64,000 nucleotides of DNA from Xenopus tropicalis (Eukaryota; Chordata; Amphibia; Anura; Pipidae). Within the stretch, counting starts at the first letter, position 1. Every line of letters starts with the position of its first letter. Shown piece after piece: positions 9,630-54,086 of this stretch. Below the pieces are notes generated by a model. That model worked only from the letters and a program-made list of their open reading frames with translations, made no database searches and was not told the DNA's origin. The translations under genes were made by a program, and so were the position numbers. Location: NCBI RefSeq assembly GCF_000004195.4, contig NC_030683.2:78461410-78525409 (forward strand). Direction: 5' to 3'.

Positions 9630-9985
9630 ATTTGTTTGTGGTTTATTTGTGGGTTTTGTACTATTTTGAGCTCTTCAGCAGCTCTCTGTTTTGGAATTTT
9701 AGTAGCTATCTGGTTGCTACAGTGCAATTTACCCTAGCAACCAAACATCCATTTGAAAGAGAAACTAGGATATGAATTTCCCAGAAGAGAAATATAAGTA
9801 ATAACAATTGTAGCCTCACAGAGTTGCCGGGTGAGTTACCCCCATTTGAAAGCTGGAACAAGTCAGACGAATAAGGCAAATAATTCAAAAACTATAATAA
9901 ATGAAGACCAAATGAAAAGTTGCTAAGCATTGGCCATTTTATAACATATGAAAAGTTAACTTATGAAGCACCCCTTTAATTACTT
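9630..9985. repeat. copy of the TATCTGGTTGCTAGG repeat
   Basis: GAGCTCTTCAGCAGCTCTCT, TAGCTATCTGGTTGCTACAG and TTTACCCTAGCAACCAAACA, ending in GAAGCACCCCTTTAA. Same order as in 28150-28440. Confidence 0.7.
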
Positions 9986-10687: not shown

Positions 10688-12059
10688 CTGTATGGAAAGA
10701 AATGATGTGCCATAAAAATGGTGTATGTAAATAGCATGCTGTGTTCTGTGCTTCCCTGATTTTAGATACAAAATAAATAAAGATATTAATCTTCATAATC
10801 TTCCCTTCACCCTATTAACTCCTAATAGGAAAATAAATCTTGTGCATTCCAAATTGTAACACTTTTAATAACATGCCCCATAGCTACTGATTATTCTAAA
10901 GTATATAAGTCATATATAATAAGGTCATATATAAAGTCCTTCTAAAAATGAAGCAGTTAAGTGAAGGCATCAGGGCCACAACTTTGGGGAACTGAAAAAC
11001 TTGTGCTGAGCTGGGGGAACAGAGTGGAATTCATTTAGTCCTACAGCCTTGAGACAGAGCTGCTGAGCTGATAAAACTGCTAATACAGCTAACAGCTAAA
11101 AATAAGCACTTTCAGCAAGTTAATACTTGGAGGACTTTATATCACCTTTAATACTCACTCACCATTCCTGTAAAGACCCGATTAGTTGATAGAAACCATT
11201 GTGTCCATGCCTAAGAATGTTTTTTTTGCCGTTATCTTCAAAATATGAACTAATTATCAATTTGTCTTAAATACTGAAACCGATAAAGAATATTATTTTC
11301 AATCAAAAAGTTGAACCTGAGCCAATTTGCCTTTGTCCAGTAACAGAACCATAGTGTCTGTCCTTACTTACCTTAGCCTAAGGTGTTTAGGTGGTTTAAT
11401 TACTGTGTAGTTTTATTATTAGAATAACTATAGTCACTGAGATCAAGAGCTCCTACTACTTGGCAGGAAAAATACCAAGGAACAGAAAGAGAACATGTTC
11501 AGGTACTGGACTACAAATACACTGTGTATAGTTTTGAATTATGTATGCATTAGGGTTGAATTAATAGTATTTTACTGGCTTATCAGGGATATTATTTTAG
11601 AGAGAAGGAATTTCCAAAAGTGGTGATTGTCAGGAGTGCCCAATGGCGCTCCTCTCTTCTTCAGAACCGTGTCCATGATGGCGCCACCCATGGCCGAGAC
11701 ATGGGATGTGGTGCCAGCGTGGTGACGTCATTGCCTAGGAATGTGATGTCATTAATCTGTGCTTGTCATTAAAATTCAAAATAAATAGATGCAAAAGACC
11801 CAGGTTCAATGTCCGAATATAGGTCTTTTTATGTAAAGTTCCTGAGTGCATCTTAATTACTACTTTGTTCTATGTTCCTGACATCCTGCTTTGTTCCTGA
11901 CTACATTTATTGCCTCCTACCACGATCCTTTGCCTGAATTTGACTAAGAGACTTGTTTAACCCCTCAGGTACCAAATACTGGATTTTCCAAACTCTGCTT
12001 CCCCCTTGGTCCTGACTTCAACCCCAGTAAAGGCAGTTGGGCATATTAAAAAATAAAAG

Positions 12060-12440
12060 TGGAGATTTGTTGGATTTTACGCTTTATTTTAGTTTAGCTA
12101 GGAAAACTCATAATCATTTTTTTCAGGACAACGTGGGATTTTTAGTTTTTCTAAATGTTTATGTAATGCCACTTCTGTAACAAGATTTAAGGGTCTAAAT
12201 ACCAAAAAAATAAAGAAGTTGATATTTTGCATAATATAAGGATATATATCACTAAAATGTTGTATTTTAAATGAGAAAATACAACTGATTTAAAAATCTG
12301 CATGATTCATGAATGTGCCAATACCAAATACCAACACCACAGAAATCAGCATACTGTATTCCCGATTCCAAGGCCAAAAAATCCTCTAACAGCAGGTTCA
12401 CCCCAGGACACCATATATTTTTGCAATGGGTACATGAGGA
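12060..12440. repeat. lone diverged copy related to the satellite transposon
   Basis: TTTTTTTCAGGACAAC, then TGTAACAAGATTTAAGGGTCT, ACAACTGATTTAAAAATC and CACCCCAGGACACCATATAT follow the same order as the left inner part and first monomer of the 15.66-22.5 kb element (15790-16170). Identity is low but collinear. No terminal repeats were identified. Confidence 0.55.
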
Positions 12441-14340: not shown

Positions 14341-14803
14341 CTGCCAAAATTAAAAAGACCAAACCTTGTTAGCCTGGTAACATATCCTTGCAAGCTTTTA
14401 AGAATTAATTTTATTTTTCTTGACTATCATTCCCTTATGTACAAATGGTAGGCTACTTACAAGAAAGTGGATATACTTAAATAATCATTAAAAACAATGT
14501 ACATATTGGCATATCACTTTCATGACAACCAATTAACGTCTCATTATTATCTCATAAGTTGCTCTCTTTGCTTTTAGATAATCAGAGATATAACTCGTTT
14601 TATTGCCTGGGGCACTAAAGCAATGCTCCGTTACAGATAGGTTAAAGAAACATTAGGGATGAATCCAACCGACTGTTATATTAAGAAAGCTAGATTTAGG
14701 ATTCATGTCATACGAGTGTACAAATATAGCTTTACAGATTTAAATGCACTTATTTCCAGCACTCTCTTGCATTAGATTTAAAACAATAAAATGTCTTTAT
14801 TTC

Positions 14804-15101: not shown

Positions 15102-15997
15102 GGAAAGTGAGCGCCAAAAATATGTCCGGAAGTAATTAGTTAGGACCATTTCGGGTTTACCTTGACATGGTATGGTGATTATAACTTTGTAAATAAAAAT
15201 CCTTGCTTTTGTAAATACACACAGGTACTAAATTACCAGTGAAATCAGTGCCCAGGGAATGTGCATTGATCTATTTCGTACACTTGAAGCTAATTTGGCC
15301 AGATCAGTAGCACTTCTATTGTACTTGTATATTTTAACTTAGCCTTGGAGTGCTACCACAACCCGCCTCTTTGTGTGTGTGGGTACATATGTATATATAT
15401 ATATACCGAATAGAGTTTGCACCATCTGTTTTTTTAACCTTAGGTTAAGTTACAAGCTTAGCTAATTGTGATTCAAATATATCTATAGTGATTCACTCTC
15501 TTTGAAAGCATAAGGTAGTCTCCAGTTTGTCCAACATTTTGCTTTCATTGTAGAGCCATGGTAACGTTAACAGTGCTATAAATGTAGCACCCATCACTGA
15601 TGTCATAAAACTCCACTTACAACACTGCATTTTGCACAGAGACACAACCAGCAGGTTTATCCCTTTCACTGCCAGCCGTTTTGAACAAAGCGGAACTTCT
15701 ACTGCCAGACAGTTTTTGAACATTTTGCACTGTTTCACTTTAGGGGCCTTTCCTTGGGGTAACTTTTAGTTTACCCAGGAAAACAATATATTGTTTTTTT
15801 CAGGACAACCTAAGCTTTTAAAATATGGTAGAATTTTTGTGTAATTCCAATTTTGTAACAAGATATAGGCTTCTAAATGTCTAAAAAATGAAAAAAAATT
15901 ATATTTTCCAATATAAACACATATACCAGAAACAAAAAATATTTTATGCATGAAAATACACCTGATTTGGAAATGCCAGGGGTCCACTGAACAGTTT

Positions 15998-18900
15998 GAT
16001 GCCCAATATGTATAGTTTTAGCTAAGTATGTGGCATGTAGGGGCCCCAATGTGAACATACACCCATATGTACTGTCATTTCTGTCATTTCAGCTTCTGCA
16101 AAATCAACATTTACATCATTACATGTGGGATAAAGCTAGTAAAAAGTACATTCACCCCAGAAAGCCATATATTTTTGGAAAGTGCACATTCCCCCGAATC
16201 TAAAATGGGTATCCATGTCTTTCTACTCCACAGTACCAAGCCGCAAAGCTTTCCTAAAGTTGGCAATTTTGATAACATTTCCAAAAATCCACTCAAAGCT
16301 TCCAGTTTCCAGCATCTTATCTCCCACATAGCATTAGGTACCAAGATAAAACACCCTAAATATGAACGCCAGGGGCCCACTGAACAGTTTGATGCCCAAT
16401 ATGTATAGGTTTACCTAAGTATGTGGCATGTAGGGGCCCCAATGAGAATATACCCCCATATGATCTATCATTTCAGCTTCTGCAAAATCAATACATTTAC
16501 ATCATTATATGTGGGATAATACTAGTAAAAAGTACATTCACCCCAGAAAGTCATATATTTTTGGAAAGTACACATTCCCCCGAATCTAAAATGGGTACCC
16601 ATGTCTTTCTACTCCACAGTACCAAGCCATAAAGCTTTCCTAAGTTTGACGATTTTTATGGCATTTCCAAAAATCACCTCAAAACTTCCACTATGCAGCA
16701 TCTTATTTTCTACAGGTCATTAGGTACCAAGACAAAACACCCTAAATATGAACCCCAGAGGTCTACTGAACAGTTTGATGCCCAATATGTATAGGTTTAC
16801 CTAAGTATGTGGCATGTAGGGGCCCCAATGTGAACATATACCCATATGTACTGTCATTTCTGTCATTTCAGCTTCTGCAAAATCAACATTTACATCATTA
16901 CATGTGGGATAAAGCTAGTAAAAAGTACATTCACCCCAGAAAGTCATATATTTTTGGAAAGTACACATTCCCCCGAATCTAAAATGGGTACCCATGTCTT
17001 TCTACTCCACAGTACCAAGCCATAAAGCTTTCCTAAGTTTGACGATTTTTATGGCATTTCCAAAAATCACCTCAAAACTTCCACTATGCAGCATCTTATT
17101 TTCTACAGGTCATTAGGTACCAAGACAAAACACCCTAAATATGAACCCCAGAGGTCTACTGAACAGTTTGATGCCCAATATGTATAGGTTTACCTAAGTA
17201 TGTGGCATGTAGGGGCCCCAATGTGAACATATACCCATATGTACTGTCATTTCTGTCATTTCAGCTTCTGCAAAATCAACATTTACATCATTACATGTGG
17301 GATAAAGCTAGTAAAAAGTACATTCACCCCAGAAAGTCATATCTTTTTGGAAAGTACACATTCCCCCGAATCTAAAATGGGTACCCATGTCTTTCTACTC
17401 CACAGTACCAAGCCATAAAGCTTTCCTAAGTTTGACGATTTTTATGGCATTTTCAAAAATCACCTCAAAACTTGCACTATGCAGCATCTTATTTTCTACA
17501 GGTCATTAGGTACCAAGACAATACACCCTAAATATGAACCCCAGAGGTCTACTGAACAGTTTGATGCCCAATATGTATAGGTTTACCTAAGTATGTGGCA
17601 TATAGGGGCCCCAATGTGAACATATACGCATATGTACTGTCATTTCTGTCATTTCAGCTTCTGCAAAATCAACATTTACATCATTACATGTGGGATAAAG
17701 CTAGTAAAAACTACATTCACCCCAGAAAGTCATATATTTTTGGAAAGTACACATTCCCCCGAATCTAAAATGGGTACCCATGTCTTTCTACTCCACAGTA
17801 CCAAGCCATAAAGCTTTCCTAAGTTTGACGATTTTTATGGCATTTCCAAAAATCACCTCAAAACTTCCACTATGCAGCATCTTATTTTCTACAGGTCATT
17901 AGGTACCAAGACAAAACACCCTAAATATGAACCCCAGAGGTCTACTGAACAGTTTGATGCCCAATATGTATAGGTTTACCTAAGTATGTGGCATATAGGG
18001 GCCCCAATGTGAACATATACCCATATGTACTGTCATTTCTGTCATTTCAGCTTCTGCAAAATCAACATTTACATCATTACATGTGGGATAAAGCTAGTAA
18101 AAACTACATTCACCCCAGAAAGTCATATATTTTTGGAAAGTACACATCCCCCCGAATCTAAAATGGGTACCCATGTCTTTCTACTCCACAGTACCAAGCC
18201 ATAAAGCTTTCCTAAGTTTGACGATTTTTATGGCATTTCCAAAAATCACCTCAAAACTTCCATTATGCAGCATCTTATTTTCTACAGGTCATTAGGTACC
18301 AAGACAAAACACCCTAAATATGAACTCCAGAGGTCCACTGAACAGTTTGATGCCCAATATGTATAGGTTTACCTAAGTATGTGGCATATAGGGGCCCCAA
18401 TGTGAACATATACCCATATGTACTGTCATTTCTGTCATTTCAGCTTCTGCAAAATCAACATTTACATCATTACATGTGGGATAAAGCTAGTAAAAAGTAC
18501 ATTCACCCCAGAAAGCCATATATTTTTGGAAAGTACACATTCCCCCGAATCTAAAATGGGTACCCATGTCTTTCTACTCCAAAGTACCAAGCCGCAAAGC
18601 TTTCCTAAAGTTAGCAATTTTGATAACATTTCCAAAAATCCACTCAAAGCTTTCAGTTTCCAGAATCTTATCTCCCACATAGTGTTAGGTACCAAGATAA
18701 AACACCCTAAATATGAACGCCAGGGGTCCACTGAACAGTTTGATGCCCAATATGTATAGGTTTACCTAAGTATGTGGCATGTAGGGGCCCCAATGAGAAC
18801 ATACCCCCATATGAACTATCATTTCAGCTTCTGCAAAATCAATACATTTACATCATTATATGTGGGATAATGCTAGTAAATAGTACATTCACCCCAGAAA

Positions 18901-19128
18901 GTCATATATTTTTGGAAAGTACACATCCCCCCGAATCTAAAATGGGTACTCATGTCTTTCTACTCCAAAGTACCAAGCCATAAAGCTTTCCTAAGTTTGA
19001 TGATTTTTATGGCATTTCCAAAAATCACCTCAAAACTTCCACTATACAGCATCCTATTTTCTACAGGTCATTAGGTACCAAGATAAAACACCCTAAATAT
19101 GAACCCCAGAGGTGTACTGAACAGTTTG
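15998..19128. repeat. satellite subfamily A with a 2,351-bp higher-order duplication
   Basis: Eight monomers of the CCCCCGAATC type. The pair at 15998-16777 (a 393-bp unit with GGCAATTTTGATAAC, then a 386-bp unit with AATCAATACATTTACATC) reappears at 18349-19128, exactly 2,351 bp later. The four monomers between them are nearly identical to one another. This is the pattern left by unequal exchange or block duplication. Confidence 0.88.
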
Positions 19129-21690
19129 ATGCCCACTGTACATAGGTTTATCAAAGCACATGGCACTTAGAGAACCCCAAATATACCTTGTGCACACTAA
19201 TTTCATGGCTTATCTTTACCTAATTCATAAACACATGGCAGTTTTATGAGGGGTAGAAGCTGCAGAAATGTAGGGTGACCCCTAAAATCCCTATATTTTT
19301 GGAAAGTACACATTCTGACAAATCCAACAAGGGTAAAGAGTCCTTTCTACACCAAAGTACCAATCTGCAAAGCTTTCCTAAAACTAGTGGTTTTTATGAC
19401 ATTTCAGAAAATCACATAAAAATATTGCAGTTTGCCGCATTTATCTCACACAATTTCTTGCGTACAAAGGCAACACACCCCAAATAGGAACACCAGAGGT
19501 CTACTGAACAGTTTGATGCCCAATATGCATAGATATACCAAAGTCTGCGGTATGTACTGAACCCAAAATGAAAATAGCGCATAAGGATTTCTCGCCTGCC
19601 AGCTCAGCTTTTGCACACAGAGCCCCCTGACAGCCTATTATATGCAGTAAGACCCCCAAACTACACAGGGACCCCCAGAAAACCATATATTTTTGGAAAG
19701 TACACATTCTGACAAATCCAACAAGGGTAAAGAGTCCTTTCTACACCAAAGTACCCATCTGCAAAGCTTTCCTAAAGTTAGTGGTTTTTATGACATTTGA
19801 GAAAATCGCATAAAAATATTGCAGTTTGCTGCATTTATCTCACACAATTTCTTGCGTACAAGGGCAACACACCCCAAATAGGAACACCAGAGGTCTACTG
19901 AACAGTTTGATGCCCAATATGCATAGATATACCAAAGTCTGCGGTATGTACTGACCCCAAAATGAAAAAAGCGCATAAGGATTTCTCGCCTGCCAGCTCA
20001 GCTTTTGCACACAGAGCCCCCTGACAGCCTATTATATGCAGTAAGACCCCCAAACTACACAGGGACCCCCAGAAAACCATATATTTTTGGAAAGTACACA
20101 TTCTGACAAATCCAACAAGGGTAAAGAGTCCTTTCTACACCAAAGTACCAATCTGCAAAGCTTTCCTAAAGTTAGTGGTTTTTATGACATTTGAGAAAAT
20201 CACATAAAAATGTTGCAGTTTGCCGCATTTATCTCACACAATTTCTTGCGTACAAAGGCAGCTCACCCCAAATAGGAACACCAGAGGCCTACTGAACAGA
20301 TTGATGCCCAATATGCATAGACATACCAAAGTCTGCGGTATGTACTGACCCCAAAATGAAAATAGGGCATAAGGATTTCTCGCCTGCCAGCTCAGCTTTT
20401 GCACACAGAGCCCCCTGACAGCCTATTATATGCAGTAAGACCCCCAAACTACACATGGACCCCCAGAAAACCATATATTTTTGGAAAGTACACATTCTGA
20501 CAAATCCAACAAGGGTAAAGAGTCCTTTCTACACCAAAGTACCCATCTGCAAAGCTTTCCTAAAGTTAGTGGTTTTTATGACATTTGAGAAAATCGCATA
20601 AAAATGTTGCAGTTTGCCGCATTTATCTCACACAATTTCCTGCGTACAAAGGCAGCTCACCCCAAATAGGAACACCAGAGGCCTACTGAACAGATTGATG
20701 CCCAATATGCATAGATATACCAAAGTCTGCGGTATGTACTGACCCCAAAATGAAAATAGCGCATAAGGATTTCTCGCCTGCCAGCTCAGCTTTTGCACAC
20801 AGAGCCCCCTGACAGCCTATTATATGCAGTAAGACCCCCAAACTACACATGGACCCCCAGAAAACCATATATTTTTGGAAAGTACACATTCTGACAAATC
20901 CAACAAGGGTAAAGAGTCCTTTCTACACCAAAGTACCCATCTGCAAAGCTTTCCTAAAGTTAGTGGTTTTTATGACTATTGAGAAAATCGCATAAAAATG
21001 TTGCAGTTTGCCGCATTTATCTCACACAATTTCTTGCGTACAAAGGCAAGTCACCCCAAATAGGAACACCAGAGGCCTACTGAACAGATTGATGCCCAAT
21101 ATGCATAGATATACCAAAGTCTGCGGTGTGTACTGACCCCAAAAAGAAAATAGCGCATAAGGATTTCTCGCCTGCCAGCTCAGCTTTTGCACACAGAGCC
21201 CCCTGACAGCCTATTATATGCAGTAAGACCCCCAAACTACACAGGGACCCCCAGAAAGCCATATATTTTTGGAAAGTACACATTCTGACAAATCCAACAA
21301 GGGTAAAGAGTCCTTTCTACACCAAAGTACCAATCTGCAAAGCTTTCCTAAAGTTAGTGGTTTTTATGACATTTGAGAAAATCGCATAAAAATGTTGCAG
21401 TTTGCCGCATTTATCTCACACAATTTTTTGCGTACAAAGGCAAGTCACCCCAAATAGGAACACCAGAGGCCTACTGAACAGTTTGATGCCCAATATGCAT
21501 AGATATACCAAAGTCTGCGGTATGTACTGACCCCAAAATGAAAATAGCGCATAAGGATTTCTCGCCTGCCAGCTCAGCTTTTGCACACAGAGCCCCCTGA
21601 CGGCCTATTATATGCAGTAAGACCCCCAAACTACACAGGGACCCCCAGAAAACCATATATTTTTGGAAAGTACACATTCTGATGAATTCA
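19128..21690. repeat. satellite subfamily B (394-bp monomers)
   Basis: About 6.5 monomers with CAAATCCAACAAGGGTAAAG and GTACTGACCCCAAAATG. The last five intervals are exactly 394 bp, and copies differ by only a few substitutions (for example AGATTGATGCCC versus AGTTTGATGCCC). The first unit (19128-19515) is a transitional form shared with subfamily A. Confidence 0.9.
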
Positions 21691-21939
21691 AAATAGGTAA
21701 AGTTATTTTTGTACACCAAAGTTACACATGGGAAAGCTATGCTAAAACAGATCAGGAATACTAATATAGGGATAAAAATGTGCAAATCAGTGAAACAACA
21801 AAATAAGCCACATGACAGTGTAATTAGTGGTCAGAATATCTGATCCAATAGTCACGCTGTCAAAATAAACAGTTTTTGGGGGAAATAGAAAAAAAAAAAG
21901 AAGTAAAATGAAAAAAATTTTTTAAATTTTTTTTGAGTT

Positions 21940-22130
21940 TGTGTATACATGTGCACATGTAAAAGTTGTGTGACAGTGTGTATATGAGTGTATATGAGTG
22001 TATATAAGTGTATATAAGTGTGCAAAGTGGGAAAAAAAAAAAAAAAACAACCTGTGCTAAATTGTGTTGTATGTGTGTATAAATGTATATAAATGTATGT
22101 AAGTGTGTGTAAAAGTGTGTATAAACAAAA
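21940..22130. repeat. simple-sequence segment, TGTATATRAG/TGTATAAA type
   Basis: Short imperfect repeats of GTGTATATGAGTGTATATAA followed by poly-A and TATGTGTGTATAAATG runs, lying between the satellite array and the hairpin-rich right end of the transposon. Confidence 0.7.
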
Positions 22131-22242
22131 ATAAAGTCACACTTACCTGTCCTGAAGATCAGATCGGTTCCCAGCTCCTCCATGCTGCAGACGTCAGGAG
22201 GAAGTGAGTGGGAGGCGGCTCAGGGGGGAAGTAGGAAGCAGT

Positions 22243-22483
22243 ACAAGCAGCAGATGCGATGCGATCGCATCTGCTGCTTGTAGGATGGTCCTGCGATAAT
22301 CGCATCGCAGGACCATCCCCCCCAACCCCCTCCGCTCGTTGCAGAAGGGGTTTGGGTCACTTCTGTCTCTCTGCACTGGCGGCTTTTGCCGCCGATGCAG
22401 AGAGAATGGCCTAGGGAAAGAAAACGTAGGTACTACGGTGTCGGCAGGAAACTGCCTTTTTTAAAACACCGTAGTACCTACGT
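22243..22483. repeat. cluster of four hairpins at the right end of the piggyBac-like element
   Basis: Four successive inverted repeats. (1) ACAAGCAGCAGATGCGAT at 22243-22260 with its complement at 22264-22281, perfect. (2) GGATGGTCCTGCGAT at 22283-22297 with 22304-22318, perfect. (3) TCTCTCTGCA at 22366-22375 with 22396-22405; a GGCGGCTTTTGCCGCC stem sits in the loop. (4) ACGTAGGTACTACGGTG at 22424-22440 with 22467-22483, perfect. The cluster sits directly inside the terminal repeat, as in subterminal stem-loops of frog piggyBac relatives. Confidence 0.88.
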
Positions 22484-24843
22484 GCTTGGCAGGGAAAGGG
22501 TTAAACTGGGTGCATTTTTTAAGCAAGTTACAGATTTGTACAGGCTTTACTGCAACCTGCTGTACTCAGTTGTCTTATCTAATGCAATTACTGTGAAGAC
22601 AAAATGCTTACAAAAGATAAACTATAATAAGGCATTAGTTTTTTTATTATAACATAAAAAGAGTTACAAGCAAGAAGTTGCTCCATATGCTCTGTATATA
22701 GTGGATGTATGTAACGTGTCTTCCAATAAGTGTTCTGCTTTGAGCATTGGATACAAGAGAAACCAATTTGTCTGCGTTATATTTCTTCATATAAACAAAT
22801 GATAATGTGAACTGACTAATAAAATTCATGTATGAATCTGAAATGTAATGTAGTTTGCTGTGCTTATGACTTAAAACAGTGGGATATGTTTTCCCATCTA
22901 TTGGCTTGCCTCCTTAACATTTTGCCTATACACAGAGTGATCTGATCATAAATAACACATGTACTTTGAGCCTTCACTGCCCAAACTACATCAGATTTGA
23001 AAATGTCTCCATTACAAAGTAAGGTAAAAGTATATGAAGGGAACATGTGTTAAAATTGGCAAGATTATCAAGTTTTCCTTTTACTGGATCACATATCTTC
23101 ATGTACAACAACCCTATGGCCCAAGTGTAAGAACTGGGGAAGTAAAGCTTAACAATTAAATTGGACATTATGTTTAGGGTTCCTGTACCAGACCAAGGCA
23201 ACCACTGCCCTTTAGCAGTGAATATCTGTGCCTCCAAAGTTGCCCCAAGTAACTTCCCATCTTTTTTTCTGCTGATTCACTGCGCATGCTTTCAGTTACT
23301 AAGCTTAGGGGACAGGCTAAAAGTATACAATATTCATAGAATATAAACATCACAATATACGGCTGATTAGTAATTTATTCAGGTTGACATAATATGGCAG
23401 CTCTAAAACAAGAGCAATAAGCATCAGAATTGAATAATCATTCCTATAGCAACAACTTATATGACAGTAGAACCTTATTCTCTGCTTATTTGCAATAACC
23501 CCTAATCTTAGCTTCCCAACAGGTGCCCAGAGCACACCGAGCATGCGAGTGTCACTGACACTTTTCTCTGACACTATTAACACAAACTAAGATTGTGAGC
23601 TCCTGTGACAACTTTAAAAGCCTGGATAATTACTACTATAGAAATGCTGAACCTTTGGGCTGGTGCAATAAGTCAGTATATAAAAAAGGGCATCTCTAGC
23701 CATATTCATTGATAGGGTTTAGTTCTCCTCTTAATTTCAGACTTGTGTCTGCTGCTTTATAGAGAATTCTTGCATCATAAACAGCTGAACATTATAGCCA
23801 GCCTCACTCCAAAACGGATACTTATTGGGATGGTCATAAAATGAAAAGACAATTTAAAATAACGAGTTGTTAGTTTTTCTTCATTAGCACCTTCAGCTTA
23901 GTTAGAAGGTATTTACCAAGGTTTTCAAGCTTAAGTGCTTCCCCGCATTATTATCATATAGAATGTTGTATCAGTGGAATATAGGCACAGCAGAAAAAAA
24001 ACCCATCCATGATAGCCAATTAGTATCTCATCATTATTCTAGGAAATATGTATGCTTGGTTATTAAATAGTTGGAATTCTTTACCCATAATCTCTTTGAT
24101 GATTCTTGTATGGTCACACACTACACTGCTGGGCTTTTTTTTTTTTTCAAATTTCCAATTAACCACATAAAAAAAGTGAGTGAGATAAATGATTAAGTGT
24201 AAACAGCAAACTTTCCTTTAAAATACACCAGTGGGCAATGTGCACATCTAATTACCAACATCCCTTTAAAGAAACATATCTAATTAAGGTTTAAATGAAA
24301 AAGCGACCAAATGCATTTAGTGATTAAGAAGAAACAAACCTAGCATTTCTACCAGGCATTTCCTTGGTTGTTGATTTGAGATTTAGAGTGAAAATAATTT
24401 GAATCTAAAGGTTTCTCCAAGCTGAATGTCTGTTCATTTAAATACTTAAAATAAGTATTCCCTACCCAGTCCGGCAAAAGCTTACACTTTTTATTCAAAA
24501 CCTGAATGAAAATTTCTTTAGATCCACCGGGGAACAGGCAAGAAATTGTGATCTCGTCAAAAGCTAATGTTATTCATTTTTGTGCTCATGGATATAAAAA
24601 AAATGTAAAATGTAGTAATAACTTTCTCTGGAGATACCAGGCAAATAACTGCAGCATAATTCATACACTTTGTGACAAAATGCATTGTTTGGAAGCCTGG
24701 ACATGGAGTCCTGGTAGAGTTGTGTCCATTACACAGTAGTTGGCATGGATCTGCTGCTGGAGCTTTTAGTTTTGGACTAAGGTTGGAGGTCTGCATCTCT
24801 AATATGCTTGTATGCTTACACAATATGTCTAGTATAGAGTATA

Positions 24844-25810: not shown

Positions 25811-26140
25811 GTCCCTTTTTGAGTAAACAAGTTGCTTGAGCGTGATTTTTGGGCAAATTGGCAGCAATTTACAAACAAAGTAAATTCCCCTACCAGGTGA
25901 AAAAGTTTAATATAAAAATATTTAATAGCATATGGCCTGGTAGTTTTTTTTATACATTTTAGTAAATCTTTAAGTAAAAGTTTATCAGTCATAAAGCAAT
26001 TATAACCAAAGTGTGATGGTGAGAAAGGTAAAAGTAAAAAGTGGGGGAACTTAAGTGTGTAGTAGAGTGGGTTTAATCTCTGCATGCTTTTCATCAGATC
26101 TACACTAGATGGTGACAGAAAGTCAATGTGAAAAAATTAC

Positions 26141-31344: not shown

Positions 31345-31765
31345 GTAGGCAGAGTATGGCACATACAGCCAGCATAGAGCAGGCAGAGTATGGCACACAC
31401 AGGCAGCATAGGTCAGGGAGGGTATGGCACACAGGAAGGGTAGGGCAGGCAGAGTATGGCACACACAGTCAGGGTAGGGCAGGCAGAGTATGGCACACAC
31501 AGGCAGCATAGGGCAGGCAGAGTATGGCACACACAGGAAGGGTAGGGCAGGCAGAGTATGGTACACACAGTAAGGGTAGGGCAGGCAGAGTATGGCACAC
31601 ACAGTAAGGGTAGGGCAGGCAGAGTATGGCACACACAGTAAGGGTAGGGCAGGCAGAGTATGGCACACACAGGAAGGGTAGGGCAGGCAGAGTATGGCAC
31701 ACACAGGCAGGTTAGGACAGGCAGAGTATGGCACACACAGACAGCATAGGACAGGCAGAGTGCTG
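31345..31765. repeat. 34-bp minisatellite inside the hAT element, about 12 copies
   Basis: The unit reads like AGGCAGAGTATGGCACACAC plus AGGAAGGGTAGGGC. AGAGTATGG recurs at 31451, 31485 and 31519, a strict 34-bp period. Variants differ mainly in the AGTAAGGGT / AGGCAGCAT portion. Since 34 is not a multiple of 3 and the unit lacks minus-strand stops, all three minus frames stay open for long stretches (up to 149 codons). These are not genes. Confidence 0.93.
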
Positions 31766-37687: not shown

Positions 37688-38179
37688 TTTTTGGCTCCCA
37701 AACCTTCTTTCCTTCAATTTCTCCAGTAGCGTGTTATCTTTAATATCAATATCTTTAAAGATAACACACTATATTGTATAAGAGTACAGTATATTATTAA
37801 ATATAACACACTATATTGTATAAGAGTACACTATATTATTAAAGATAACACGCTATATTGTATAAGAGTAGAGTATATTATTAAAGATAACACACTATAT
37901 TGTATAAGAGTACAGTATATTATTAAACATAACATACTATATTGTATAAGAGTACAGTATATTATTAAATATAACACACTATATTGTATAAGAGTACAGT
38001 ATATTATTAAATATAACACACTATATTGTATAAGAGTACACTATATTATTGAAGATAACACTATAGGGTATAAGAGCACACTGTATGATTAAACATAATA
38101 CACTATAGGACACGTTTGTGTTAATTTTGTCTCTTATCTCATGGAGAAATTGAAGGAAATAAAGTTTGGGAACCCAAAA
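37688..38179. mobile_element. inverted-repeat element framing a 42-bp minisatellite
   Basis: The left arm (37688-37724) and right arm (38142-38179) are inverted copies of about 37 bp with a few mismatches; both contain TTTCCTTCAATTTCTCCA when read inward. The space between them is almost entirely the tandem array. No target duplication or family was recognised, so a transposon origin is inferred from the structure. Confidence 0.65.
37757..38110. repeat. 42-bp tandem repeat, about 8 copies
   Basis: TATAAGAGTAC (with variants in two copies) recurs at exact 42-bp steps (AGAG at 37781, 37823, 37865, 37907, 37949, 37991, 38033) and then at 38073 after a 40-bp unit. Since 42 is 14 codons, the minus strand shows a 14-residue repeating ORF, a repeat artefact. 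The last unit is degenerate. Confidence 0.95.
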
Positions 38180-39930: not shown

Positions 39931-41627
39931 GCCCATATGCTCTGTATAAAAATAAATAAAAAATACATATTTCTATATAGGAGGAATGTTAAACCAGTGG
40001 CCATGGGTATACTCAAAGGACCCAGAAAAAATGTGTGTGTGTGTGTTTTTTTTTTTTTTTAATTCGCCAGGTTTCTTTTCATCATTTTCCCATCATGTGT
40101 ACCCAGCAAAGCAACCTATCCATCACCTGGCATCACAAGGGCAACATGGGAAGTTTAGAATCTGCAACATGACAAATAAAAGGAGTCAATAAATAGAGAA
40201 AGAAATAGTTGGTAGTGATGAACCTATGTTCTCACCAGATATAGAATGAAATTCCGCTATCTTCAAATATTTTTGCTAAACTGCTGAAAACATTTGCGTC
40301 CAAAATTTTTGCTGTGAAAAAAGTTGGCATATAAAAACATCCATAGACTCCAATATATTTTGTATGGAACAAGTATCTGTGAAAAAAATTTGATGCGAGA
40401 AAGTCACTGCAAAGAACACCCACTAACTTCAATGTGTTTTGTAAATTTTTAGCTGTTTTGCAAATGTTCTCACTGTTTCTTGAGTTTATTTTCCAAATTA
40501 TCATGTTGACCTACTTAACGTTTTTGTCTCTTGCCTTCTGATTATTTATTCTTTTTACCAGTCCTCTTGTTTTTTTGTTCATTGAATAACAATTTAAACA
40601 TTAGGTCATCATGACAAACAAGGCATTTGCCTTTTATCAATATATGAATCCCTATTACCTGCACATGTAAGCTAGAACAAGCTGTCCACCCCTAGCAATA
40701 AAGTCACATAGTAAAACTTATGAGAAGTTCTAAGAAAGCTTGTGACAAGCCTGTCAGTTAGTGAGTAGCTGAATTGGTTTGGCAAGTCTAAAACGGCAAA
40801 CTGAGCCAGTAACACCTCAGGTTTTTAAAGTGCAAGAAAATAAATATACAATCAGCTTGTAATATTTCCTTAAGCCAAATCCATATTGAAAATAGAAAAT
40901 GAATCTATTTCCACCAATAACAAAAACGTGCAAAAATAAATCTCAAAGAAACCAGTATGCATCTCTCCATATTAAGTTTGCTTCATATAATGCAGCTTCT
41001 CTCTTTACTATTTCTGGCCTCTATGCTCAAGCAAAGAATTTGACAGTCTTGGTTGCCACGAAACAAACATGGGGTTTTCTCACAGCAGTACCAGGTCAGC
41101 AAGCTGGGTTAAGTGCACTGAACGATGTAAAGTGTTTTCAATCACTAATCTTAGCAACAGTAAGGATGATACTTGATTTTACCTTGATCAAGGAATACAA
41201 GATTTTCTGTGAACCACTGGTATCTAACTATATAAAGTTCTAGATACATTTTTTATGAGACAGATCTTTTTAGATAGAAAGAAAAAATATTTGGAAAGTA
41301 GAAGAAAAAGCAATATTACCTGTTGCAAAATTGATTTAATGGATACGTTTATTGGAGACAGTAAGTTAGGTAACTAGAGAATAAAACAGGCATATACAGT
41401 GAAATATAATAGTTGTGTTAAAAACAATAGAATATATGCTTACTAATTGTCAAAAGTCATCTGCAAAGGTCTTAGGTGTAAGATGATGTAATATGTTTCA
41501 TTTTCATAAGAATAAATCTATTTACTTTGATTGTTCAAAATTAACCATAACGCGTGACCAGATGATACACACACATCTATATTATACTCAGTATTGATCT
41601 TAAGATAGAAATATTCTTGGAAATTCT

Positions 41628-47641: not shown

Positions 47642-49780
47642 CATAGTTACATAGTTACATAGTTACATAGTTACATAGGGTTGAAAAAAGACCTGTGTCC
47701 ATCAAGTTCAACCCATCCAAGTAAACCCAGCACACCTAACCCACACCTACCAATCTATACTCACATACATAAACTATAAATACAACCACTAGTACTAACT
47801 GTAGATATTAGTATCACAATAGCCTTGGATATTCTGATTGATCAAGAACTCATCCAGGCCCCTCTTAAAGGCATTAACAGAATCTGCCATTACCACATCA
47901 CTAGGAAGGGCATTCCATAACCTCACTGCCCTCACCGTGAAAAACCACCTACGCTGCTTCAAATGGAAGCTCCGTTCCTCTAATCTAAAGGGGTGACCTC
48001 TGGTGCGTTGATTGTTTTTATGGGAAAAAAGAACATCCCCCAACTGCCTATAATCCCCTCTAATGTACTTGTACAGAGTAATCATGTCCCCTCGCAAGCG
48101 CCTCTTTTCCAGAGAAAACAACCCCAACCTCGACAGTCTAACCTCATAGTTTAAATCTTCCATCCCCTTAACCAGTTTAGTTGCACGTCTCTGCACTCTC
48201 TCCAGCTCATTAATATCCTTCTTAAGGACTGGAGCCCAAAACTGCACTGCATACTCAAGGTGAGGCCTTACCAGGGACCTATAAAGGGGCAAAATTATGT
48301 TCTCATCCCTTGAGTCAATGCCCTTTTTTATACAAGACAGCACTTTATTTGCTTTAGTAGCCACAGAATGACACTGCCTGGAATTAGACAACTTGTTATC
48401 AACAAAAACCCCTAGATCCTTCTCCATTAAGGAAACCCCCAACACACTACCATTCAGTAGATAGTTTGCGTTTATATTATTTCTACCAAAGTGCATAACT
48501 TTGCACTTATCAACATTGAACCTCATTTTCCAGTTTGCTGCCCAGTTATCTAATTTTGTCAAATCGCTCTGCAAAGCGGCAGCATCCTGCATGGAACTTA
48601 TAGTTTTGCACAATTTAGTGTCATCAGCAAAAATAGAAACAATACTGTCTATGCCCACCTCCAGGTCATTAATAAACAAGTTAAACAGCAAAGGCCCAAG
48701 GACTGACCCCTGCGGTACTCCACTAACCACACTGGTCCAATTAGAAAATGTTCCATTTACAACCACTCTTTGTACTCTATCCTTCAGCCAGTTCTCTATC
48801 CAATTACAAATATTATGTTCTAGGCCAATATTCCTTAATTTGATCATTAACCTTCTGTGAGGTACTGTATCAAACGCTTTAGCAAAGTCCAAGTAGATGA
48901 CATCAACTGCCATTCCAGCATCAAGGTTCCTACTCACCTCCTCATAAAAGGCAACTAAATTAGTCTGGCAAGATCTGTTACGCATAAAACCATGCTGGCA
49001 CAAACTAATAGTATTGTGAACTGCAATGTATTCAAGTACCCTATCCCTTATTACCCCTTCCAAAAGTTTTCCTACTACTGATGTCAGACTAACAGGCCTA
49101 TAGTTTTCAGGCTGAGAACGGGATCCCTTTTTAAATAACGGCACCACATTAGCAATCCGCCAGTCTCTTGGCACCATGCCAGACCTCAATGAATCCTGAA
49201 AAATTAAGTGAAGAGGTTTGGCAATCACAGCGCTCAGCTCATTTAATACCCTGGGATGAATCCCATCCGGCCCTGGACCTTTGTTTACCTTTACATGTTC
49301 AAGTCTCTTTTGAATTTCCTCCCGAGTGACCCATGCGTCAGTAGCTAAATTACTAGAACTGGGCATATTACAAGGGAAGCCTTCATTATCTGGCTCCTCA
49401 GATGTATAGACAGATGAAAAATAAGAGTTCAAAATTTCAGCTTTTTCCCCGTTTTCATCAACCAACGTACCCCCCCGTGATAATAAAGTTCCCACCCCTT
49501 CTTGCTTCATTTTTTTACTATTCACATAATTAAAAAATAATTTTGGATTCTTTTTACTCCTAGCAGCAATATCCCTTTCCATCTCTATTTTAGCTTGCCT
49601 GATAGCTTTTTTGCATGCTTTATTTGCTTCCTTGTACCTGATGAAAGTTTCTGCTGTCCCAGCTAACTTGAATGCCCTAAAAGCACGTTTTTTCTTACCA
49701 ACCTCGACAATAACACTTTTATTCAGCCATAAAGGTTTTGCTTTGCGATGCCTCTCCTTGCTTACTAGGGGGATATGTAA
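47642..49780 (-). mobile_element. 5'-truncated CR1/L2-type LINE
   Basis: A minus-strand non-LTR retrotransposon. The 3' end is marked by a tail of 8-bp repeats (ACATAGTT seen on the plus strand, 47642-47677), as usual in the CR1/L2/Rex group. The 5' end stops at about 49780 inside the segment between endonuclease and reverse transcriptase, so it is a typical 5' truncation. The untranslated 3' region is short (about 150 bp). The element sits in a grik4 intron in the same orientation as the gene. Confidence 0.9.
47795..49780 (-). CDS. LINE reverse transcriptase ORF, 5'-truncated
   Basis: One uninterrupted frame of about 660 codons ending in TAG at 47795-47797; an internal ATG at 49580-49582 would give 595 residues. 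The frame is coding-like upstream of that ATG (KPLWLNKSVIVEVGKKKRAF...), so the ATG is not the true start. Reverse transcriptase motifs appear in order: GPGPDGIHPRVLNEL, NYRPVSLTSVVGKLLE, QHGFMRNRSCQTNL, DVIYLDFAKAFDTVPH, SGVPQGSVLGPLLFNLFIND, FADDTKL (catalytic FADD box) and KCKVMHFGRNN. The C-terminal part with LPLYRSLVRPHLEYAVQFW and LEKRRLRGDMITLYKYI is typical of CR1/L2/jockey-like elements. The endonuclease domain is absent. The lack of stops or frameshifts suggests a young copy, but it cannot mobilise itself without the 5' part. Confidence 0.92.
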   Translation of the reverse strand, partial: LHIPLVSKERHRKAKPLWLNKSVIVEVGKKKRAFRAFKLAGTAETFIRYKEANKACKKAIRQAKIEMERDIAARSKKNPKLFFNYVNSKKMKQEGVGTLLSRGGTLVDENGEKAEILNSYFSSVYTSEEPDNEGFPCNMPSSSNLATDAWVTREEIQKRLEHVKVNKGPGPDGIHPRVLNELSAVIAKPLHLIFQDSLRSGMVPRDWRIANVVPLFKKGSRSQPENYRPVSLTSVVGKLLEGVIRDRVLEYIAVHNTISLCQHGFMRNRSCQTNLVAFYEEVSRNLDAGMAVDVIYLDFAKAFDTVPHRRLMIKLRNIGLEHNICNWIENWLKDRVQRVVVNGTFSNWTSVVSGVPQGSVLGPLLFNLFINDLEVGIDSIVSIFADDTKLCKTISSMQDAAALQSDLTKLDNWAANWKMRFNVDKCKVMHFGRNNINANYLLNGSVLGVSLMEKDLGVFVDNKLSNSRQCHSVATKANKVLSCIKKGIDSRDENIILPLYRSLVRPHLEYAVQFWAPVLKKDINELERVQRRATKLVKGMEDLNYEVRLSRLGLFSLEKRRLRGDMITLYKYIRGDYRQLGDVLFSHKNNQRTRGHPFRLEERSFHLKQRRWFFTVRAVRLWNALPSDVVMADSVNAFKRGLDEFLINQNIQGYCDTNIYS

Positions 49781-49946
49781 AATAAACTAATTTTTTTCAT
49801 ATATTAAATGGGCCAAATTTAACACAAAGAGAAAACCTAATTCACTTGCAGGTTTTCCCATAGACTTAAATTGAGTTTTCATATCATAAATGATGAGGTA
49901 ATTTTTTCTCATCAGAGAAAAAGTCTATGGGATCATGCAGACTTAA

Positions 49947-53424: not shown

Positions 53425-54086
53425 GGGGCTGATTCATCAAAGTACGAGTTTGAAAATTTGGATTAGATACGATAATTTTTGATGTTCGCAAATGTCATGC
53501 TTACAAAAAAATAATTTTAGTCAAGATAATATTGTATTTGCGATCTAAAAGTCATGAAATTTTCATATCTGAGCGATCGTAAACGGCAGGAAAACCCTTC
53601 TGACTTTGATCCTTCTGTGTATGATTTCTGAAGCCTCCCATAGGGCTCAATGGCACTCTGCAGCTCCAACCTGGCCCAAGGAAAGTCTCCCATAGGGCTC
53701 AATGGCACTCTGCAGCGCCAACCTGGCCCAAGGAAAGTCTCCCATAGGGCTCAATGGCACTCTGCAGCTCCAACCCGGCCCAAGGAAAGTCTCCCATAGG
53801 GCTCAATGGCACTCTGCAGCTCCAACCCGGCCCAAGGAAAGTCTCCCATAGGGCTCAATGGCACTCTGCAGCTCCAACCTGGCCCAAGGAAAGTCACGAT
53901 ACTGAAGCTTGAATGAATCTGAAACTTTCATACTCATTGCGACAATACAATTTTGTCACATAATTTTTGACGCACAGTTCTAGAAAGTTGCGCAAATTAG
54001 CGTAAAAATCGGTGAAAATACGCAAGGTAAGAAAAAAATATATATTTTTGTATTCGGAGGCAATCGTACTTTGATAAATGGGCCCC
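53425..54086. mobile_element. Harbinger-like MITE with internal tandem expansion
   Basis: The left end is GGGGCTGATTCATCAAAG (preceded by TTA). The right end, read inward, is GGGGCCCATTTATCAAAG (followed by ATA). The ends share the GGGGC start and 3-bp AT-type target of PIF/Harbinger MITEs. Internal blocks such as ATACGATAATTTTTGATG and AAAGTCATGAAATTTTCATA are shared with copies at 5.4, 33.9 and 35.9 kb. Confidence 0.75.
53635..53894. repeat. 52-bp tandem repeat, five copies, inside the MITE
   Basis: CTCCCATAGGGCTCAATGGC begins at 53635, 53687, 53739, 53791 and 53843, exactly 52 bp apart. Copies differ by single bases (CAGCTCC/CAGCGCC, CCTGG/CCCGG). The related MITE at 33922 has this segment once (from 34100), so the tandem state is derived. 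Confidence 0.95.

Follow-up and report, generated by a model that had tools for sequence, protein, structure and literature searches.

The stretch under study is a 64,000-nucleotide segment of the Xenopus tropicalis genome (assembly GCF_000004195.4, contig NC_030683.2, positions 78,461,410 to 78,525,409 of the forward strand), hereafter the window, in which a 6840 bp unit at positions 15661–22500 carries a long satellite array between paired ends resembling those of piggyBac transposons. Six kainate receptor pieces were placed on the minus strand (approximately 43945–43742, 29841–29722, 26250–26140, 14357–14166, 10686–10522, and 2561–2301) with fragments of receptor sequence as queries, and GluK4 (5ikb) was the top Protein Data Bank match for the two of the six exons that were queried. 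The unit sits in an intron of a grik4-like gene, flanked by the exons which end at 26140 and start at 14357 in window numbering, and the array is therefore inside a gene. The whole is probably one non-autonomous element of piggyBac type with an internally grown array. Its parts are listed below, together with an older relic upstream; m1–m15 are the satellite monomers, A and B the two blocks which they form, box 1 and box 2 two short repeats within them, TRF Tandem Repeats Finder, and TIR a terminal inverted repeat.

12087..12435, plus strand: older relic, a relative of the left module (12087–12297) followed by a box 1 piece (12383–12435)
15657..15660, no strand: left flank TTAT, one base off the expected TTAA (direct reading)
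15661..15674, plus strand: left TIR, CCCTTTCACTGCCA (repeat comparison, pair scan)
15661..15975, plus strand: left end module, AT-rich, outside the array (sequence comparison)
15976..19150, plus strand: sub-array A, m1–m8, 393/386 bp (TRF, monomer alignment)
16756..18327, plus strand: chimeric monomers m3–m6 (diagnostic alignment columns)
19107..19493, plus strand: m9, first half diverged, second half of B type, parting A from B
19277..21682, plus strand: sub-array B, period 394, made of the second half of m9, m10–m14, and the start of m15
21654..21679, plus strand: last of the 15 copies of box 1 (CATATATTTTTGGAAAGTACACATTC)
21683..21746, plus strand: diverged monomer remnant at the right array edge
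21683..22500, plus strand: right end module (sequence reading, monomer cutting)
22242..22282, no strand: hairpin 1, 19-nt perfect arms, 3-nt spacer
22283..22318, no strand: hairpin 2, 15-nt perfect arms, 6-nt spacer
22366..22405, no strand: hairpin 3, 18-nt arms, 89% complementary, 4-nt spacer
22424..22483, no strand: hairpin 4, 18-nt perfect arms, 24-nt spacer, adjoining the right TIR
22487..22500, minus strand: right TIR, CCCTTTCCCTGCCA on the minus strand (repeat comparison, pair scan)
22501..22504, no strand: right flank TTAA (direct reading)

The first-pass annotation of this DNA had described a 6.84-kb unit with matching CCCTTTC.CTGCCA termini next to TTAA (TTAT on the left), and direct reading agrees with it. 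The 14-bp TIR, CCCTTTC[A/C]CTGCCA, has 13 of 14 bases in agreement between the ends, with one mismatch. The window was scanned for 14-bp inverted pairs starting with CCCT, 100–8000 bp apart, with at most 3 mismatches and TTAA on both sides, one base of one flank being free to differ; a single pair was found, 15661/22500, with 1 mismatch, while pairs starting with CCTT or CCCC were absent from the window under the same rules. In 100 dinucleotide shuffles 5 CCCT pairs arose in all, each with 3 mismatches and none as good. With one good pair in 64 kb and none in the shuffles, the pairing of the ends is beyond chance. The TIR length and the CCCT start satisfy the piggyBac hallmark of 12–19 bp and CC[C/T]T (PMC2872659, cited, like the other papers below, for the passages covered).

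The superfamily named by the first-pass annotation, piggyBac-like, is thus a likely one as regards the CCCT-type paired ends, the terminal motif being the sole basis of the placement and the left flank reading TTAT. The absence of a transposase, claimed at the same time, holds for what was scanned: 54 stop-to-stop open reading frames (ORFs) of at least 60 aa overlap the element, and the 10 of them scanned with Pfam gave no hit of any kind at the curated cut-off. Within the frames scanned, an autonomous piggyBac member is thereby excluded, but not a non-autonomous one. Matches to TMEM107 and DUF2232 were weak, lay below the cut-off, and were put down to chance.

About 15 copies of a 393/394 bp satellite had been described as filling most of the unit, and the tandem array indeed occupies 83%, or five-sixths, of the 6840 bp. 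TRF gives 15976–19150 with period 393, 8.1 copies, and 93% matches, and 19277–21682 with period 394, 6.1 copies, and 97% matches; cutting at a common phase yields 15 monomers, of which m15 is half diverged. Beyond the earlier description, the array proves to consist of two homogenised blocks parted by a mixed monomer, and the right end to carry four strong hairpins. The A monomers m1–m8 are mutually 89–99% alike, m1 and m7 as well as m2 and m8 agreeing at 97% and m3–m6 at 98–99%, and the B monomers m10–m14 are 97–98% alike, while identity between the A and B sets is just 68–72%. Both m9 and m15 change to and from the B type at box 1, m15 being of B type as far as box 1 and diverged beyond it. 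The diverged halves are nevertheless relatives of the monomer: the score of the first half of m9 was reached by 0 of 300 shuffles against A and 1 of 300 against B, and that of the second half of m15 by 0 of 300 against B.

When identity was followed in 10-bp steps, block A was seen to start and stop at a stretch with ACTGAACAGTTTGATGCCCA (box 2) and block B at box 1. The block edges are in phase at the boxes, and each array therefore approximates to a whole number of units with one short repeat added. No identical run shared by the two block consensuses is longer than box 1, where they agree at 26 of 26 positions versus 69% overall, a run length matched by 113 of 20000 permutations; the exact 26-mer of box 1 was found neither in the viral nor in the genome contig collections searched, as expected for frog DNA. 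The monomer was also considered as a coding repeat and rejected as such: m1 and m7 each have a long open frame of 117 aa, which a stop interrupts in the B monomers.

The history of block A can be read from diagnostic columns, namely those in which the state shared by m1 and m7 differs from the state shared by m2 and m8. In columns 76–162 all four of the monomers m3–m6 are of m1/m7 type at every one of the 17 diagnostic columns, of which 6 are base changes and 11 are gap columns produced by two indels. In columns 194–407, with 22 diagnostic columns, they are of m2/m8 type save for 2 of 88 cells, which belong to m6 and agree with neither type. The switch of type is located within 31 alignment columns just ahead of box 1, and, being single, it is explained by one exchange followed by amplification. 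Together the in-phase block edges and the m1/m2 chimeras are marks of an array that grew within the element, by unequal exchange or by slippage. From these data we infer that the short identical boxes served as exchange points; the reverse order, with exchange having homogenised the boxes, is possible.

At the right end, the single-stranded DNA fold of 22236–22500 has a z value of −15, with 0 of 200 shuffles equally stable, and an inverted-repeat scan of the left end (15600–16000) returned one short palindrome. The right end is also GC-rich (0.58 in 22181–22440), with a CpG observed/expected ratio of 0.70, and of 0.81 in the last 60 bases, versus 0.16–0.39 in six other stretches measured. On the minus strand, 22183–22130 reads as a TGACGTC word, then an ATG, 12 codons, and a splice-donor-like GTAAGT; this could be a remnant of the promoter and first exon of an autonomous parent. 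An origin of either module as a decayed monomer was not supported: the score of the left module was reached by 39 of 300 shuffles against m3 and 49 of 300 against m11, and that of the right module (21747–22190 only) by 179 of 200 against m11.

A second line of evidence comes from the relic about 3.2 kb upstream, in which 12087–12297 is 73% identical to 15764–15974 of the left module (E 2.4e-13) and 12383–12435 aligns with the monomer stretch at box 1 (E 0.0013; 0 of 500 shuffles). The order of left module and box 1 is the same in relic and element, so the link between module and monomer predates the present copy. The relic and the in-phase block edges speak for a possible origin of the repeat in the interior of the element itself; an intact copy with a single unit was not among the sequences found. 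The relic region would extend over 11957–12435, with a candidate terminus TTAACCCCTCAGGTACCA at 11957 and possibly starting with TTAACCCCTCAG; the left end of coral CMITE family III likewise starts with CCCCTCAG (PMC2872659). The match of 12294–12440 to m9 was weak, its score being equalled in 13 of 300 shuffles. Three further candidates were set aside: the relic tail as a right module, whose score was reached by 0 of 300 shuffles through a scattered low-complexity alignment and was discounted, and two profile hidden Markov model matches put down to chance, one of the left module at 9791–9627 on the minus strand (E 0.023) and one of the monomer at 41054–41113 (E 0.99).

The 117-aa frame of m1 was used to look for the monomer elsewhere. 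All eight candidate relatives are X. tropicalis "hypothetical protein" clusters (P0121–P0128) of 68–94% identity, which comprise 23 member sequences in total on contigs of four sizes. By these protein matches the monomer is to be regarded as dispersed in X. tropicalis, and the eight annotated clusters look like satellite monomers taken for genes. P0127 and P0124 bear consecutive locus tags (XENTR_v10022141/022142), which suggests neighbouring monomers and hence an array elsewhere. P0121, at locus XENTR_v10001422, ends in DAHCT, which the window has at one of its 15 monomer starts, the A/m9 boundary. An exact coding sequence for P0121 is absent from the window, where it matches m1 best (94% over 87 residues) and the A/m9 boundary at 79% over 91 residues. 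The comparison is suggestive of a P0121 locus which shares the A/m9 junction with a different neighbouring monomer.

Taken together, the observations would fit the following course of events. The ancestor element may have held the internal unit once or twice, and its short direct repeats (box 1 for B, box 2 for A) would have enabled unequal exchange or replication slippage, by which the unit multiplied in more than one round, B and A separately, and the copies at edges and junctions went on diverging. The ends would be recognised by a transposase of piggyBac type supplied from another locus, the element, at least partly loaded, would have moved to TTAA sites through a cut-and-paste mechanism, and arrays may have been seeded at new places with local growth or shrinkage afterwards.

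That tandem repeats may travel on a mobile vehicle is not a new idea, and repeats borne by miniature inverted-repeat transposable elements (MITEs) have been described in Xenopus. Xmix is a TTAA-targeting T2-MITE with AGGRR ends, placed with Kolobok, whose amplified internal segment is Xstir (PMC6004289), and MITE, array, and composite forms of Xmix/Xstir are described (PMC6004289, PMC12628747, PMC2872659, on Hikosaka and Kawahara 2004). In PMC2872659 (2010) the 2004 Xstir work is cited as partial internal repeats of a piggyBac-MITE, a placement that disagrees with the Kolobok one of PMC6004289 (2018). The present element resembles Xmix/Xstir as a non-autonomous, TTAA-targeting Xenopus element with an internal segment amplified into a tandem array, a likeness at the level of description, and differs from it by its CCCTTT ends. 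Another such system, miDNA4, is a Tc1/mariner MITE of X. tropicalis that contains at least one satellite monomer, for whose array growth flanking microhomologies were proposed as the route (PMC12628747, PMC9659126; Scalvenzi and Pollet 2014). It likewise is a non-autonomous transposon housing satellite monomers, either one alone or an array of variable size, whereas the element described here has piggyBac-type ends and two blocks bounded at two different boxes.

Outside frogs, the Acropora CMITEs are piggyBac-type MITEs with TTAA duplications, also seen as tandem arrays, and the left end of CMITE family VI is identical to the 14-bp CCCTTTCACTGCCA of our element (PMC2872659, where CC[C/T]T termini, TIRs of 12–19 bp, and TTAA are given as the piggyBac hallmarks). 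CMITEs are about 100 bp long and are arrayed whole, while in the present element the repeated part is internal, a unit of about 393 bp recurring between a single pair of TIRs. The X. tropicalis v10 study traces some of the subtelomeric arrays to SINE/tRNA-V, CR1, and Kolobok-2; in the 12 of 17 passages covered, it names piggyBac as enriched in pericentromeric regions and does not list it among the sources of arrays (PMC10794172). Within the part of the literature covered no piggyBac-carried frog satellite was found, save the Xstir carrier as placed in PMC2872659. Xenopus piggyBac elements of the TxpB group include Uribo1, Uribo2, and Kobuta, and the Uribo2 transposase is reported active in cells (PMC6004289, PMC2533014; Hikosaka 2007). 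These belong to the same superfamily and frog genus and, unlike the element, are autonomous or domesticated genes. They are a candidate source of its transposase, and the Uribo2 ends are presumably similar to its own. A tandem array inside one TIR pair, by which a satellite-carrying MITE is recognised, is present here with 15 monomers, and the element looks like a further member of that known kind, working as Xmix/Xstir and miDNA4 do and having ends of piggyBac type.

Several points weigh against the interpretation as a single mobile element. The left flank is TTAT versus TTAA on the right, which makes the target-site duplication imperfect, and beyond 14 bp the two ends share little, so that they could derive from different elements. 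The right edge of A is blurred, identity being 0.8 to about 19150 and 0.6–0.7 to about 19180. For the right-end module the rest of the window offers no relative (best E 0.45), the ORF across the junction of array and right module gave no candidate protein relatives, and a right end looked for in the relic had no matching candidate; the relic termini are uncertain, and TTAACCCCTCAGGTACCA may be chance. As to the copies elsewhere, the m1-derived protein query favours open, m1-like monomers and is silent on the ends, and the P0121 junction argument hangs on three residues. The one TIR mismatch, the TTAT flank, and the dissimilar subterminal regions would all suit ends left by two insertions, or an older satellite block caught between a pair of piggyBac-type ends, rather than one transposon. 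We consider this improbable, given that the pair is the sole fitting one in 64 kb with none as good in 100 shuffles and that the relic independently ties the left module to a monomer box. Moreover, piggyBac ends are normally asymmetric past their short TIR. A Kolobok-type T2-MITE like the Xstir-bearing Xmix agrees in target word, host, and kind of internal tandem repeat; T2-MITE/Kolobok ends, however, start with AGGRR or AG, whereas CCCTTT suits the CC[C/T]T hallmark of piggyBac (PMC2872659), and such an identity is very improbable indeed.

The time of growth is a closer matter. It is a serious prospect, only a little short of even, that no more than one or two units came in with the element and that the array arose at this locus later, so that the seed was spread and not the array, which denies just the last inferred step of the explanation proposed above. 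The block structure indicates local growth by exchange, the last amplification rounds look recent because m3–m6 and m10–m14 are 97–99% alike, and just one monomer piece was detected in the relic. On the other side, P0121 seems to have the A/m9 boundary elsewhere, so that this junction, at least, may predate one dispersal, and the consecutive tags of P0127 and P0124 suggest an array elsewhere. That the loaded element itself moved and spreads arrays is graded as a tentative and rather doubtful proposition. With comparable reserve a wider picture may be offered, in which a piggyBac-type element would be the recurrent vehicle for a multi-kb X. tropicalis satellite of about 390-bp units, loaded jumps would keep the block boundaries, the two boxes would re-expand the array after landing, and arrays would thus be seeded and regrown in gene-bearing chromatin.

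Other repeats of the window were recorded as well. On the minus strand, 47795–49786 (also given as 47798–49786) is a reverse-transcriptase ORF of 663 aa, stop to stop, which is 99% identical over its full length to part of a 931-aa X. tropicalis UniRef protein, the best among the matches listed, whose family has 178 member sequences; it looks like a young retrotransposon copy. Minisatellites are located at 31347–31761 (period 34 bp, 12.3 copies), 37755–38107 (period 42 bp, 8.5 copies), and 53631–53895 (period 52 bp, 5.1 copies, 97% by TRF). The last of these has the same period as a SINE/tRNA-V minisatellite that is reported to have expanded in the subtelomeres of X. tropicalis (PMC10794172). 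Rfam at the gathering threshold gave no matches across the window.

How satellites arrive at new chromosome sites is a long-standing question, for which the Xenopus models covered here rest on Xmix/Xstir and miDNA4. In practical terms, a group of "hypothetical proteins" annotated in X. tropicalis may be satellite monomers. Should the family be confirmed, the two boxes would be mapped growth points, by means of which one could count directly how arrays at known TTAA sites have changed in length from copy to copy, and a third transposon superfamily in X. tropicalis would be found to carry a satellite, with multi-kb cargo.

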